Part shown: piece by piece, positions 1 through 32,272 of the stretch
Layout of the letters: each line of letters opens with the position of its first letter
Position numbering within the stretch: the first letter of the stretch is position 1
NCBI RefSeq assembly: GCF_024868665.1
Contig: NC_079898.1
Location: forward strand, 1,345,443-1,409,442
Source: Triplophysa rosa
Lineage: Eukaryota; Chordata; Actinopteri; Cypriniformes; Nemacheilidae
Direction of reading: 5' to 3'
Length of the DNA: 64,000 nucleotides
Position numbers and translations under genes: made by a program
Notes under the pieces: generated by a model
Database searches by the model: none
What the model saw: only the letters and a program-made list of their open reading frames with translations
What the model was told of the DNA's origin: nothing

Positions 1-2
1 CA

Positions 3-626
3 GCTCGCACCTCACACTGTATACAACTACAAGGAAAGGGAGATACTTGGTTCCATTTAACATCCTGTGTAGCTTGTGACCCCCCTTCTAGGTCTCTTGC
101 TGACACTGGTTTGGACCTAAGGACTCAGGTCCAAGAGAGGGAGGATACACAGAGTCACGGTAAAACAGACACTGAAATTGCCACTGGACAACACCAACAG
201 CTCCAAATTATACACAAAACAGGCGATATTTTCACAAGCCCACACACAGAACCATTGGCCCATTGTGTAAGTGCTGACTGTGCATACGGAGCAGGTATAG
301 CTAAACAGTTCAAATGGCGATATGGTACAGGGAAAGTAATTGATCAAAACAAACAACGAGGTGAATGTGCAGTAACTAAAGAAGAAGATGGCAGAATTAT
401 TTTTCACCTAATAACTAAAGAACAATGTACTCATTTACCAACATATGACTGTTTCACAGAAAGCCTAAAACACATGAGAGGTTGGTGTGTGGCTAATAGA
501 GTAAAAAGAGTCTCAGTACCCCGGCTGGGGTGTGGTCTAGATAAACTAGACTTCAAGAAAGTGCAAAAGATTCTGAGTGAAGTGTTCACGGACGTGGACA
601 TACAAATAACCATTTATTCCTTATAA
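3..626 (+). CDS. Endogenous retrovirus Pol C-terminus fused in frame to an OARD1/TARG1-like macro domain (5' partial)
   Basis: The frame is open from the window edge to a stop at 624-626, about 207 codons. The first 28 or so codons resemble the C-terminal end of gammaretrovirus-type integrase (a W-x-H-L...C-x2-C-DPP segment). The rest is a full macro domain of the terminal ADP-ribose glycohydrolase type: a GDIF strand, AHC-x3-DC, GAGIA loop, LITK, and GCGLDKL near the end. In TARG1 the catalytic residues are the Lys of LITK and the Asp of GCGLD; both are present here. No in-frame ATG precedes the domain (the codon at 111 is TTG), so within this window it can only be made as part of Pol or from a spliced message. 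It lies about 180 bp upstream of the env leader. Known for the family: removal of ADP-ribose from acidic residues. Inferred: a captured host gene acting during infection. The macro assignment is firm; the integrase assignment of the short 5' part is moderate. Confidence 0.8.
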   Translation, partial: ARTSHCIQLQGKGDTWFHLTSCVACDPPSRSLADTGLDLRTQVQEREDTQSHGKTDTEIATGQHQQLQIIHKTGDIFTSPHTEPLAHCVSADCAYGAGIAKQFKWRYGTGKVIDQNKQRGECAVTKEEDGRIIFHLITKEQCTHLPTYDCFTESLKHMRGWCVANRVKRVSVPRLGCGLDKLDFKKVQKILSEVFTDVDIQITIYSL

Positions 627-804
627 TCAAGTTTTCATTATTGTGTGATTTTGAGTGTTGTTCAATGTTTTTCAATTTTCAGGTTTGAAAGTGTATTTTT
701 AAGAGTGTTTTCTTACAAGTTTTAAGGTATTAAGTTTTTAAGAAGTGTTGATTTTGTAAAGATAACAAGACAATACTAGAGAGGGTGAATACAACAGCAA
801 CAAG

Positions 805-867
805 ATGAAGCTGTGGGAAAATTGGAAGTTGTTGTGTGTGTTAGGGATAATTGCAGAACCATCGTAG
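805..867 (+). pseudogene. env: Retroviral env leader fragment, frameshifted off the rest of env
   Basis: An ATG at 805 opens a 20-codon frame with a short polar start and a hydrophobic Leu/Ile/Val stretch, typical of an Env signal peptide, then stops at 865-867. The surface-subunit frame that follows is in another phase, so a small indel near 830-865 has separated leader and body. It lies about 180 bp after the Pol-macro stop, the position expected for a spliced env message. The role is inferred from position and composition only. Confidence 0.55.
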
Positions 868-1439
868 GGATAATTTTTGGAATACAAAAAAGTCAGGAAG
901 GTAATAGCACCACACCGCGAACTAGACATAGAAGGTCAATAACATCAACAGACAAATGCTTACAGAAATATGGTGGAATTGAGCTAAATTATACAAAAGG
1001 AAGTAATACATCATATACAGTTGATTTGTGTAGTATTATCCAATGCAACGGGAAGAATAGTTCATGGCGAGGATATGATGTTTACCTGTGTGGGCTGGGA
1101 TGGCCGGGTAATCATAGATGGTGTCCCACTTGGAACCATGTGTGGCAAGCCACTAATCCAGATTTTCAGGGAACCACAGAAACAAAGACAGCGAATGGTG
1201 AAGTAAAAGCGGCAGGACATTTTAGCATACAAAGAGATTTTAGTCACGCACAAAATCCTATAACCATATCTATAGTAGGTTTACAACAAGATATATACAA
1301 AACAAACGCACAGGGTGTACCGAACCAGTGTTGGGATACCAAGGAAGGACAATTTTATGTACTAGTGGGAGTGGATGTGACTGGTAAGGATACATTGGGT
1401 CTGGTAAAAAATTGTGTTAAAAGAAAGACCAGAAAATGA
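813..1439 (+). pseudogene. env: Retroviral Env surface subunit, N-terminal part (broken)
   Basis: This frame holds about 200 codons with several N-glycosylation sites (NYT, NTS, NSS), many Cys and Trp residues (CGLGWPG, RWCPTW) and no hydrophobic leader of its own. That fits the receptor-binding part of a retroviral Env surface subunit. It ends at TGA 1437-1439. The next Env frame opens at 1472 in a different phase, so a second indel lies between about 1415 and 1475. The first 10-15 codons are probably out-of-frame leader sequence. I recognise it mainly because it sits directly upstream of an unmistakable Env transmembrane region. Confidence 0.65.
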
Positions 1440-1471
1440 AACAACAACCTCGAAAAAACCATTGCCAGTAA

Positions 1472-2830
1472 AAAAACCCAAAGGGTGAAATAGTAGAAAT
1501 TGATTATACCAAATTGAAACCGGAAGACATAATAGAAAAAGCCACAGTGTATGGGGAAAACAATTTATGGCTGGAATGGATAATTACCACAGCCAGAGAA
1601 CAAGGATTAGATGATTGTGTAGGGTGTGCTAACGCAAGACCCAAACTACACATAGAACCAGCTCCCTTGCATCCAAACGATACCTGGGGCTACGGGTGTA
1701 TGCTAGCCTTGACACATCAAGCATCACCACCAAATTGTACCACGTTGGCAGCAATATTTCCACCCATCTCAAATCACTCTAAAGCAGGACCATTCACACC
1801 ACAGAAAGCAAACTACACGTGTTTTAACATTACACGTAACTCACCAACAAGTAACCTAGGGGAAATAAGTAATCGGGTAAACTGGTGTAATCAGATAGTG
1901 ATAGATAACGGGACACAAATAGGAACATGGGCTAGAGCAGGATTGTATTACTATTGTGGAGATCGTAGACTGTTTACTAGAGTACCTGAGGGAGCAAGAG
2001 GAGTGTGTGCTATGGTAAGGTTAGGAGCCCCGATAACCCTGATAGGTGAAAGAACTGTGAATGAGGAAAGCATGAGTTCAGCCACACTTGCCAGAAGATG
2101 CAGAAGACACATCCTCAGGAAGAGGGCAACAGGTTCAAGTGTAGATTTGTCATTAAACAGCCCCACATACATCGATGCAATAGGAGTTCCTAGGGGAGTA
2201 CCAAATGAATACAAATTAGCAGATCAGATAACAGCAGGATTAGAGAACATACCGATAATATCTGCATTTTTCCCAGTCACTCCCAACAAGAATGTAGATA
2301 GAATTAACTATGTACATTATAACGTGATGAGATTAGCAAACATGACAAGAGATGCCGTTGATGGTTTAGCGGAACAACTAGCACCAACTTCCCTGATGGC
2401 CATCCAAAACCGTATGGCCCTAGACATGCTGTTAGCAGAAAAAGGAGGAGTATGTTTTATGTTTGGAGATCTTTGTTGTACTTACATTCCAAACAATACA
2501 GCCCCAGATGGATCAGTCACTAGAGCATTAGAGGGATTGAAGACGCTATCAGTAGAGATGAAGGAACATTCAGGTGTAGATAACCCTATAGAAGATTGGC
2601 TAGACAAGATCTTGGGGAAATGGAAAGCAGTGGTGATGTCTATTGTAGTGTCAATAGGAGTTTTCTTAGCTATATTGATTACCTGTGGATGCTGTTGTAT
2701 TCCCTGTATTAGATCACTGTGCAATAGGTTAATTGTTACAGCTATTGAAAAGAAAGAATCTCCACCCCCATACAGTATGCCTTTGTTATCAAGTGATCTA
2801 GCAGAAAATGAAGGAGAAGATGATGTGTGA
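1472..2830 (+). pseudogene. env: Retroviral Env, surface C-terminal part plus transmembrane subunit, gammaretrovirus type
   Basis: The frame is open from 1472 to the stop at 2828-2830. In order it shows a CVGC motif (the CXXC disulfide-isomerase-like motif of gammaretroviral surface subunits), several N-glycosylation sites, and a basic RKR stretch near 2120-2130 that would be the furin site. An immunosuppressive-domain-like helix is followed by the diagnostic C-x6-CC (CFMFGDLCC, 2452-2478). A membrane anchor lies at about 2625-2700 with a Cys-rich inner edge, then a short cytoplasmic tail with PPPY, a possible late-domain or endocytic motif. This half is uninterrupted, but it has been separated from its leader and surface N-terminus by frameshifts, so no whole Env can be made as read. 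There is no ATG at the frame start. Confidence 0.85.
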
Positions 2831-2856: not shown

Positions 2857-3600
2857 TGTGGAAATATTATTCAGTTAGAAGTATGATTTAATTACCAATA
2901 TAATCAATAAGTGTTTTCTTTCATTAAATCATTAAGCTGTGTGCTTTTAATGTGTTTGCTTGCTTGCTCTAATGGAAAAATACTGCTGTGCTATGAGGAA
3001 CTCACCAAGAGCTGCATGAATAAAAAACAGGATGTGGGTTAAAACTGATAGAACATTTAGTTCTGATGGGGGGGCAAAATAACTGCTGACAAAGAGTCAC
3101 ATAGGGAAGGAATGTTATGAATTAATCCAATGCATATGTTTTAAGTATAATCATGAGTTTTGATGTGTTTTATTGAATCATAGGATTAAGAAACAATGCT
3201 GCATAATTAAAGCATTAGATGATTGAGTTTTTTACTGAAAGTATTTTTACATGTTGTTTTGCGATATGAAACTGTCTCTAGGGAACGCTTCCTCAAATTA
3301 GCAACTGACCGCAGGTTGCAAAACATGTGTTGTGCAAAGATGTTGTTTTGCAGATATACGTGGTGCACGGTGATGGTGGAAAGGGAGCAGCACTCCTTAA
3401 AAGGCAGAGGAGGAGTCAGAAGATGCGAGCGATGTCACATACTGAATAAATATGTGTGTTTTTGAATAATTTGGGTTGTTGGCTTGTGGTGGAGTGAGGA
3501 GATCGTCTGACAACCCAAAGCTTTGTTACTCCTTTTTACATCTGATAATAAACTTCTAATCGATTTTGGAGAACGTCTCTGTGCAAATTTTTGAACATGC
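2857..3600 (+). mobile_element. Candidate 3' LTR of the endogenous retrovirus
   Basis: The start TGTGGAAATATT follows the polypurine tract. Inside are a TATA-like CTTAAAAGG at 3395-3403 and poly(A) signals AATAAA at 3445-3450 and 3547-3552. The 3' boundary is uncertain: CA ends occur near 3600 and 3621, and no second LTR is available in the window for comparison. The length of about 740-765 bp is plausible for a fish gammaretrovirus-like LTR. Confidence 0.6.
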
Positions 3601-3756
3601 AGGACTGCCTTAAAAGTCCAACACGTTTCATTGACACAGCATATATGCTTATCTGACTTGAACATACTCGTCACTGCGCTACAAACAGCGGCGTGCTGGT
3701 TTGATCACACACCGCCCGAGAAACGCAGCTCTGTGTCTTTGACAACTCAGCCATAC

Positions 3757-14017: not shown

Positions 14018-14166
14018 ATTTACATTTATGCATTTGGCAGATGCTTTTATCCAAAGCGACTTACATTTCATTATACTATATATATGTTTCTGAGTATGTG
14101 CCTTCCTGCGATCAAACCCATGATCTTGGCATTGTCAGCGCCATGCTCTAACCACCGAGCCACAGG
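14018..14166 (-). mobile_element. tRNA-derived SINE with L2-type 3' tail
   Basis: The minus strand begins with a tRNA-like head containing an A box (GTGGCTCGGTGGTTAGAGC) and a B-box-like GGTTTGATCGC. It ends in AAGTCGCTTTGGATAAAAGC-type tail sequence, the 3' end shared with fish L2 LINEs and used for trans-mobilisation. Length about 149 bp. Confidence 0.8.
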
Positions 14167-14882
14167 AAAGCCTTCAGTGCAAATGGGGGTAAACATATGC
14201 TTGATAACTGTTACAATTTTGAGGTGGTCCTTGTAAAATTGTTTCCCCTTTAAGGGGTCCCTGGCCCCCTAAATTTTTAGACCCCCTGGTCCAACGGCAG
14301 CTTTAGCGGAGTTGCTCATGGCATTGGATGGGTAGACCCTGCCAGCAGTCGAGCAAGAGCACTCCTGCGAACTGCAACATGACACTGAGGAAGTGGAATT
14401 AGGGAATGAGTTTAGATGTTCGACAGGGAGAGTCCTCACAGCATCCGATGGGAGCTTTAGCTAAGATGCATTGAACAGGTAGACCTTGCCATGCAGTCGA
14501 ACAAGGGGGGATGGAGGGGCAAGACTAGGAAATAAGTAAATGATGAATTTCTGCTGCCTCAGGCAGGAAGTGGATACCGTGACTGTTGAAAAACGTTTCT
14601 CAATCTCCTTATGAGTGACCATTCCTGTTATGATTTTAAACCGGCATTCCCCTGACTGCTAATGTTTAGACTGTCTAATGTCTATTGTATCTGAGTGTTG
14701 TGTTTCCTGTAGATTTCGAAGAAATGTTTTTGTAAATGCATTTGTTAACAAACTGTTATTCAATTTCTGTGCCTTTCTGAATTTGGCTATAGACCTAAAA
14801 GTATACAAGCGAGCAAAGATGTGAGTTCAAACAACATATCATTTATGACAAAGAAATTAAACAAACACTGTCACATACTTAC
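14167..14882. other. pld5 intron, no gene seen
   Basis: Contains two imperfect copies of a GGTAGACC(C/T)TGCCA...CAGTCGA(G/A)CAAG segment (about 14330 and 14480). Nothing else recognised. Confidence 0.45.
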
Positions 14883-29479: not shown

Positions 29480-32272
29480 AGTGCAAGAGGTTTGCTGGCA
29501 CAGGTTTGCTTATCAACAATAATTGGAAATATTCCCCACGATCTTCCCTATGCAACAACCATTCATTTTAATACCATGCTGTTAATATCACTTTTCCCAC
29601 TCAGCTCAGTGTTGTTGTAGTTTACCGCCCCCCAGGTCCTCTTCACAACTTCATTGAAGAGTTAGATGTGTTGCTCTCATCATTCCCGGAGGATAGCGGC
29701 CCTCTTGTAGTCTTCGGTGACTTCAACATCCACCTAGAGAAACCCTATGCCTCTGACTTCCACACCCTTACCGCCTCGTTCGACCTCACGTGCCTCGCCA
29801 CAGCCTATACTCACAGATCAGGAAACCAGCTTGATCTCATCTACACCTGTAACTCCACTACAGATAACATTCAAGTCACACCTCTTCACATTTCTGACCA
29901 CTTCTTCGTCACTTCGTCACAACATACTCCTTCCTATATGCACTACACCAACACCACCACCCGTTTATTTTAGACGGAACCTCCGCTCTCTCTCTCCTAG
30001 CACCCTCTCTGCTAAAGTCACATCCTCTCTTCCCTCCAACTTTGCATCTCTAGATGCTGACACTGCCACCGACACCTTATGCTCAACACATCCTGTCTAG
30101 ATAACCTTTGTCCTCTGTACTCCAGACCAGCCCCTGGCTGTCTGACATCCTCCGTGAGCAACGGAGTACACTCAGGGCTGCTGAAAGGAAATGGCGCAAG
30201 ACCAAGAATCCTGCCGACCTAGGGGACTACCAGTCACTACTGTCCTCCTTCTCTGCTAGTGTTACCACAGCTAAAACGTCTTTCTATACCACCAAGGTAA
30301 GCAATGCGCCTAACACTCGGCAGCTTTTCAAGACGTTTAACTCTCTTCTTTGCCTCCCTCCTCCCCCACCCACTTCATCTTTGACCACGGAGGACTTCGC
30401 TGTATTTTTCACTGAGAAAACATCATCCTTCAGCGAACAATTCTTAGCACCTCAGACCTCGGTACACACCTCCCTCACTTCAAACATTGAACTCTCCTCT
30501 TTCACCCCACTGACTGACACTGAAGTCACCAGACTTCTCTCCAGCCACCCCATCACCTGTCCCCTTGACCCAATACCCTCCCATCTCCTTCAGGCCACAT
30601 CCAGCACACTCGCACCTGCACTCACACACATCATCAACACCTCCCTGCTCACCGGCACCTTTCCATTCACATTCAAACAGGCCCAGGTCACACCCCTACT
30701 GAAGAAACCCACATTGGACCCCTCTACTACCGACAGTTACAGACCTGTCTCTCTCCTCCCATTTATTGCAAAAACACTTGAAAGGGCAGCTTTCAACCAG
30801 GTGTCGTCCTACCTATCCCAGAACAAACTACTGGATGACAAGCAGTCTGGCTTCAAAACAAACCACTCCACTGAGACTGCACTGCTATCGGTCACAGAAG
30901 CATTGCGGCTAGCCAAGGCGGAATCTAAATCCTCGGTCCTGATTCTGCTAGACCTATCTGCAGCGTTTGACACTGTCAATCACCAGATACTGCTAGCAAC
31001 CCTGTCATCACTAGGAATTTCAGGCTCTCCTCTCCGCTGGTTCAAATCCTACCTCTCCGGCAGATCCTTCAGGGTGTCATGGAGGGGCTCGCTGTCCACT
31101 GCTCACCACACAATCACATGGATTGGTGCTTGGACTGCTACTTTTTTCCATCTACACGTCATCCTTGGGACCTATCATACGGGCACATGGCTTCTCCTAT
31201 CATTGTTATGCTGACGACACCCAGATCTACATCTCGTTTCACCCAGACGATCCACTGTAGCAGCTCGCTTTACTGCCTGCCTAGAGGACATCTCGGCTTG
31301 GATGAAAGAGCATCACCTCCAGCTGAACCCTGCCAAGACAGAACTACTCGTGTTTCCGGCACATCCCCACTGTGCAACACAATCTCACCATCCAACTTGG
31401 CAATCCATCCAACCACAATCACTCCTTCCAAAACAGCCAGGAACCTCGGTGTCATATTTGATGAACAGCTGTCCTTCCATGATCACATTGCAAAGACAAC
31501 GCGGTCATGCCGATATGCCTTATTCAACATTAGAAAGGTTAGACCCTATCTCACTGAGCATGCGGCACAACTCCTTGTCCAGGCCCTGGTAATCTCAAGG
31601 TTGGACTACTGCAATGCTCTCCTTGCTGGTCTTCCTGCAAAGGCTATCAAACCGCTCCAGCTGGTTCAGAACGCAGCAGCACGCCTCATCTTCCAACAGT
31701 CCAAAAGGGCTCATGTGACGCCCCTTTTCATCTCCCTCCACTGGCTACCGGTTGAAGCCCGTATCAGATTCAAGTCACTAATGCTTGCCTACAGGACTAT
31801 CACTGGATCTGCACTGACATACTTTCACACCCTCCTACACTCCTACACCCCATCAAGATCCCTGCCTTCAGCAAACCAGCGGCGTCTTATACTGCCTTCC
31901 CATAAGGGCAGTAAATCGCTTTCCCGCTCATTCTCATTCACAACTCCTTCCTGGTGGAACATTCTTCCTAATTCGGTCCGGTCAACCACATCTCTCACAA
32001 CATTCAAAAAACTACTTAAAACCCATCTCTTCTGTGAATACTTGACAGACAAATGAAGAAAAAAAAAAAACACTAACCCTCTCACTTTCTCTCAACAGGT
32101 AGTGGTCTAGCTTTTGTTAAAACAAGTAACTTTGTATTGGCATCTATTGCATTATTGCTCCTGTATGACATATCGCTTATTGCTCCTTATACTCTTTGTA
32201 AGTCGCTTTGGATAAAAGCGTCTGCTAAATGACTAAATGTAATTGTAAATGTAAAATGTAAATGTAAGAGCC
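29480..32272 (+). mobile_element. L2-type LINE, 5' truncated, frameshifted
   Basis: The endonuclease end (YRPPGPLHNFIEEL, GDFNIHLEK, ISDHFFV; 29610-29930) is followed by a linker and reverse transcriptase. The tail AAGTCGCTTTGGATAAAAGCG...AAATGTAAATGTAA ends at 32272, the standard fish L2 3' end with a short repeat. Confidence 0.85.
29596..32056 (+). pseudogene. L2 endonuclease and reverse transcriptase remnant
   Basis: Three frames cover the protein: 29668-29973 (endonuclease), 30108-31214 (linker and RT with YRPVSLLPFIAKTLE, QSGF, LLDLSAAFDTVNH) and 31079-32056 (RT end and C-terminal region with LDYCNALLAGLP, QNAAARLIF, LHWLPVEARI). The YADD motif is intact at 31207-31218 but lies in the frame of neither long ORF around the frame change. 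A stop after TRLF breaks the endonuclease from the RT. Confidence 0.85.

Follow-up and report, generated by a model that had tools for sequence, protein, structure and literature searches.

The Pol polyprotein of a multi-copy endogenous retrovirus (ERV) in the nemacheilid loach Triplophysa rosa ends in a predicted macro domain of the TARG1/OARD1 type, joined in frame to the end of integrase. The reading we consider most probable (roughly 0.6) is that an intronless copy of a host OARD1/TARG1-like gene became the C-terminal domain of this Pol and serves as a particle-delivered ADP-ribose eraser that acts early, together with integrase. This explanation draws on the fusion frame itself, the predicted fold and catalytic pair of the domain, the signature of purifying selection, the many copies in the genome and the same fusion in other cypriniforms. 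The element, which from its host we take to be epsilon-like, was found at the edge of the 64-kb stretch of DNA that was analysed (hereafter, the window), and its features are collected in Table 1.

Table 1. Features of the macro-bearing ERV copy in the window.
Feature	Position	Strand	Basis or remark
Open frame: integrase tail, linker and macro domain	3-626	+	207 aa; TAA at 624-626; enters from window edge
Integrase C-terminal tail, 47 residues, cut by window edge	3..143	+	profile match and six sister copies
Purine-rich tract inside pol, codons of QVQERE motif, resembling the 3' polypurine tract	132..145	+	identity to 3' tract
Linker, integrase tail to macro domain	144..200	+	low model confidence; near-neutral dN/dS on few sites
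TARG1/OARD1-type macro domain, including stop codon TAA	201..626	+	PDB sequence search, profile, model, fold search
Lys139, equivalent of TARG1 catalytic Lys84	417..419	+	alignment
Asp180, equivalent of TARG1 catalytic residue 125	540..542	+	alignment
First env frame; from its position, part of the surface subunit	789..1439	+	open frame; Pfam gives nothing above cut-off
Second env frame, remainder of the surface subunit plus a gamma-type transmembrane subunit	1472..2830	+	TLV_coat, CX6CC
3' polypurine tract AAGAGAGGGAA	2845-2855	+	sequence
Probable 3' LTR	2858..3640	+	both ends estimated by eye (TG...CA)

The initial annotation had described an open frame that passes from an integrase C-terminus into a complete macro domain with neither a stop nor an ATG between them, and this was confirmed. 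The sole methionine of the frame is residue 158, within the macro domain, so the stretch that leads from the integrase part to the macro domain contains no ATG. Residues 2–47 match an integrase-tail profile built from homologues (E 1.4e-24), and residues 68–207 match a macro profile in the same search of the 207-aa frame. A chance open frame can be set aside, as 207 stop-free codons would arise with a probability of about 5e-5 (one frame, even composition) and homology decides the matter regardless.

Human TARG1 (PDB code: 4j5r) was the first match in a sequence search of the PDB (E 3.6e-39, residues 62–207), while Pfam Macro is weak on the window frame (13.1 bits, below the 22-bit cut-off). 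An AlphaFold2 model of the frame, calculated from a 42-row alignment, has a mean pLDDT of 85, with values of 89–98 per ten-residue block from residue 71 onward and below 50 at residues 49–53 and 55–62, which make up most of the linker. In a Foldseek comparison of the predicted model with the PDB, ranks 1–8 are all TARG1/C6orf130 (TMt 0.86–0.96), the best being 4j5s_C with TMt 0.96 and 1.1 Å. A weaker fold match is found to the macro domain of Venezuelan equine encephalitis virus (3gqo; TMt about 0.7, 16–17% identity). Among the best 50 matches from a collection of predicted viral structures, many of them nameless, none is named as a retrovirus. TARG1-like macro domains 32–38% identical to the query were also observed in the large phages LP65, Fnu1, LpeD and Bacillus phage G.

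The likeness to TARG1/OARD1 (C6orf130) extends over predicted fold, length and the catalytic Lys and Asp, at about 45% identity. The domain differs from TARG1 in being joined to integrase and, compared with the human protein, is one residue shorter in the FKKKFGG loop and has FHLITK for YYLITK. The roles of TARG1 Lys84 and residue 125 are taken from the account of the enzyme in PMC7050489, which prints Glu125, whereas the residue is Asp in the human sequence used here. Across 41 hand-picked loach-type rows the catalytic Lys is kept in 32 of the 34 that could be scored and the Asp in 27/28, the losses being Lys to Arg (2/34) and Asp to Asn (1/28). By its closest predicted fold and its kept catalytic pair the domain is of the TARG1/OARD1 type, and the OARD1-like class originally proposed for it is borne out by TARG1 ranking first in both the sequence and the fold searches.

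The stretch upstream of the window copy consists of N (1498 bases), and the integrase that precedes the macro domain is known from sister copies. A search of the T. rosa genome (684.8 Mb) with the fusion protein returned 159 matches, a lower bound in which fragments are counted and many matches are fragmentary or bear stops. At least 48 are stop-free across residues 1–207, of which 29 belong to frames that reach 500 aa or more and 15 to frames that reach 1000 aa or more, by a hand count among the matches listed in which runs of N may count as open. The window copy's own frame scored 1721 aa, a value that may likewise include N as open and is not relied on. One locus (L001, G000:C161:3807-4427, on a 165-kb contig) is identical to window positions 1–626 at 626/626 bases and represents either a very recent copy or an assembly duplicate.

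Six of seven N-free loci (L003, L004, L007, L008, L010 and L012; L011 was left out) were read upstream. In all six the integrase core (rve) lies above its Pfam cut-off in the same frame as the macro domain, and the zinc-binding region (H2C2) is present below cut-off; an RNase H match was obtained in five, for two of them below cut-off, and a weak match to the MLV-type integrase C-terminal domain also in five. Aligned to P0131, a protein with DD35E spacing, both Asp residues of this motif are found in 6/6 copies and the Glu in 5/6, and in none of the six does a Met fall between QVQERE and the LAHC motif of the macro domain. Downstream of the macro domain, DNA like window positions 627–2200 follows in all 11 loci compared; this env-side likeness spans at least 366 bases in eight of them and 211–247 bases in L003, L006 and L012, where it stops shortly after the env frame begins. 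The in-frame fusion of Pol (integrase) to the macro domain is thus supported on DNA in every sister copy read, with the zinc-binding region and core located upstream where the initial annotation had suggested looking for integrase motifs. Its expectation of macro copies flanked by pol and env likewise held, with pol in the six copies read and env-side DNA at all 11 loci, env being reached well in eight. The six sister copies read presented no upstream stop or splice boundary, no absence of pol and no macro domain lacking pol and env.

The initial annotation also placed env, a polypurine tract and an LTR after the fusion in retroviral order. In the window, env is recognizable from TLV_coat (Pfam, E 1.3e-8) and from the CX6CC motif of the transmembrane subunit at position 2453, and its division over two frames indicates that the env of this copy is broken. 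Env and the tract are therefore in place, env with its frame disrupted, while the LTR that follows the tract is likely, its ends being estimates by eye. AATAAA occurs at 3019, 3445 and 3547 within this probable LTR, and no second copy of it was found within the 64-kb window. From the order of its sequence features, the element is a retrovirus with a CX6CC gamma-type env after pol. Elsewhere in the window, LINE-like open frames were seen by eye at 30105–32238 and 14024–14169 (-), with UnaL2 3' elements (Rfam) at 32185–32238 and 14024–14077 and a tRNA match, barely above cut-off, at 14101–14169.

The purine-rich tract inside pol shares 11 bases (132–142) with positions 2844–2854 in the region of the 3' polypurine tract; among 2000 codon shuffles of the frame 7 gave an equally long match, as did 18 of 1000 base shuffles of positions 1–2820. 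Nucleotides 120–146 are identical in the window and in all ten sister copies compared. At the protein level QVQERE is the same in 9/9 proteins of one set and differs in P0133 (QDQERD), P0016 (QVQEGD) and P0127 (QVQERV). These observations are no more than suggestive of a second (central) polypurine tract in pol, and the tract could be either that or a scar of the capture.

By pooled Nei–Gojobori estimates the macro domain has a dN/dS of 0.249 and the integrase tail one of 0.166, against 0.902 in the linker, a short stretch with few synonymous changes. The sample comprises 11 stop-free Triplophysa copies in 55 non-independent pairs, and the copies rank near the top for protein similarity, a choice that biases dN downward. 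The difference between macro domain and linker indicates that the macro domain has been kept by purifying selection.

The same fusion is present in other cypriniform fish. Proteins from Paramisgurnus (P0131), Misgurnus (P0132) and Puntigrus (P0133) each combine an integrase core above its Pfam cut-off with a full-length macro match, the latter by our own profile, as Pfam Macro is below cut-off in all three; a protein of Danio aesculapii (P0147) contains integrase together with the beginning of the macro domain. Eight macro-less proteins (P0138, P0140–P0145 and P0161), from hosts including Nothobranchius, Nibea and Paramormyrops, have integrases 41–55% identical to that of P0002 of the macro-bearing group. 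These integrases stop 3–23 residues beyond the tail match, ends that for some may be those of a gene model or contig. Three of the eight are entries derived from metagenome-assembled genomes (MAGs) or contigs or are otherwise nameless. With eight related integrases ending so soon past the tail, the macro domain seems to have been added onto Pol at its end.

In a second ERV group (P0068, P0071, P0049 and P0169–P0178) an MLV-type integrase C-terminal domain (PF18697) is joined to a macro domain through a junction shorter than the loach type, under about ten residues. Among 16 rows of this group the catalytic Lys is kept in 9/9 and the Asp in 6/7 that could be scored. Four proteins filed under bacterial MAGs (P0021, P0128, P0137 and P0158; Brevinema, Aeromonas) closely resemble the integrases or macro domains of these fish ERVs and are likely to be fish DNA in metagenome bins. 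No related locus was confirmed in the viral and genome contig collections.

For the origin of the domain, a protein search gave 906 matches, 120 of them listed; 189 proteins were collected, 123 had enough of the domain and 82 were picked for a quick tree. A careful tree of 59 rows was obtained by removing 24 for long branches or near-identity and adding the human protein. In the careful tree the two ERV groups join (92/97) and, with rooting on non-vertebrate rows, the ERV domains group with nine OARD1 rows (98/89), seven of which are from named teleosts outside Cypriniformes. In the quick tree, by contrast, the ERV domains fall outside vertebrate OARD1. Constraining vertebrate OARD1 to be monophyletic costs 9.6 log units. 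The AU test rejects neither this topology (p-AU 0.307) nor a placement of the second ERV group outside (p 0.376), and the length of the ERV branches is a recognized pitfall for such trees. The host's own OARD1, apart from the ERV copies, lies at C21:11872230-11872972 in several blocks, presumably exons, the best of which is 71% identical to Pimephales OARD1. The capture of an OARD1-like gene, as first envisaged, is thus likely to have been from vertebrate OARD1, with other placings permitted by the tree tests; a teleost OARD1 is the most probable source, though not a proven one. A single capture for both ERV groups or two separate ones would each fit: the careful tree joins the groups, but the AU test allows their separation and the junctions differ.

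RNA viruses are well known to use macrodomains against host ADP-ribosylation. The present domain resembles coronavirus Mac1 and alphavirus nsP3 as a viral macro domain of the kind taken to counter this modification, but those two belong to another macro class and are not known to be particle-borne. In the mechanism we propose, a host OARD1/TARG1-like coding sequence would have been captured as an intronless copy and placed after integrase. Located at the C-terminus of Pol, it should, from what holds for retroviruses generally, be packaged in each particle and enter with integrase, arriving in the pre-integration complex. Its substrates there would be ADP-ribosylated proteins, viral or host, or modified nucleic-acid ends, and the removal of their ADP-ribose would shield reverse transcription, integration and first transcription from PARP activity. 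The action would be like that of the coronavirus and alphavirus macrodomains, but brought by the incoming particle rather than made after entry. In the account of TARG1 in PMC7050489, the enzyme is active on mono-ADP-ribosylated protein and on nucleic-acid ends that carry ADP-ribose, releases polymers whole and is an interaction partner of PARP1; the passage on PARP1 in PMC7050484 presents its part in retroviral infection as contested, being needed, not needed or repressive. These activities and the contact with PARP1, taken with the reports on PARP1 in retroviruses, favour an integrase-linked early eraser with moderate confidence.

A later site of action is conceivable, if rather unlikely: the domain, made from the provirus or cleaved from Pol, would work after integration, reversing interferon-type PARP marks on viral RNA or proteins in the cytoplasm in the manner of alphavirus and coronavirus macrodomains, with no link to integrase. 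The kept fold and catalytic pair would also fit that role and the nearly neutral linker would suit release or free movement, whereas the far end of Pol would be expected to yield few molecules per cell and the domain is joined to integrase in 6/6 sister copies read. Gammaretroviral integrase tails are tether sites, which agrees with the notion, improbable in our judgement, that the macro domain has turned into a structural element or ADP-ribose reader within integrase, tethering it to ADP-ribosylated sites on chromatin, with no need for catalysis. The ALC1-like class, as characterized in the part of PMC7050489 that concerns it, does hold readers as well as erasers, but the retention of both catalytic residues in nearly all scorable rows speaks against such a role. 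It is very hard to credit that a chance OARD1 retrocopy inserted in one provirus and was later amplified as baggage: the host-like, intronless domain and the many damaged matches would suit it, but the many genome matches and the dN/dS pattern (0.25 in the macro domain, 0.90 in the linker) disfavour a lone retrocopy, as do the kept catalytic pair and the fusion in Triplophysa, Misgurnus, Paramisgurnus and Puntigrus.

The preferred reading, an early eraser delivered with integrase, has a broader form that we offer as a tentative and doubtful extension. Retroviruses may have acquired a TARG1-type eraser at the end of integrase on two or more occasions (two groups, two junctions), as an integration-stage counter-defence that would keep PARP marks off the ends of the viral DNA, integrase or adjacent chromatin. 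We know of no integration-stage counter-defence by an ADP-ribose eraser from other retroviruses.

A macro domain as such is not new to retroviruses, contrary to what had first been supposed: a passage on fish epsilon-like ERVs in Naville and Volff 2016 (PMC4977317, citing Basta et al. 2009, J Virol 83:10152) states that those of ray-finned fish occasionally carry extra ORFs for CNPase or macro domain proteins, so that macro-domain fish retroviruses were already known. By that review's description, with which we compare, the macro proteins of the Basta 2009 ERVs are additional ORFs, while the domain here is fused to Pol and of the TARG1 class. An integrase–macro fusion, the TARG1 class, a kept active site and a signal of selection are unnamed in the literature searched, though Basta 2009 may describe some of these points; the Pol-fused, TARG1-class, selected form is new at least within that literature. 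Crocodilian ERVs, in the portion of PMC4299795 that describes them, are alike in having captured host mRNA and differ in the genes concerned, KIT-ligand or nectin3; purifying selection is reported for nectin3, whose capture cost env.

The fish element appears to have incorporated a host gene into Pol while retaining both pol and env. Whether, and at which step, ADP-ribosylation restricts retroviruses is disputed in print, as the discussion in PMC7050484 conveys, and a retrovirus that keeps a predicted eraser on its integrase under purifying selection would offer a direct handle on that dispute. The joined form and its maintenance by selection make this a testable case of a virus adopting a host eraser enzyme.
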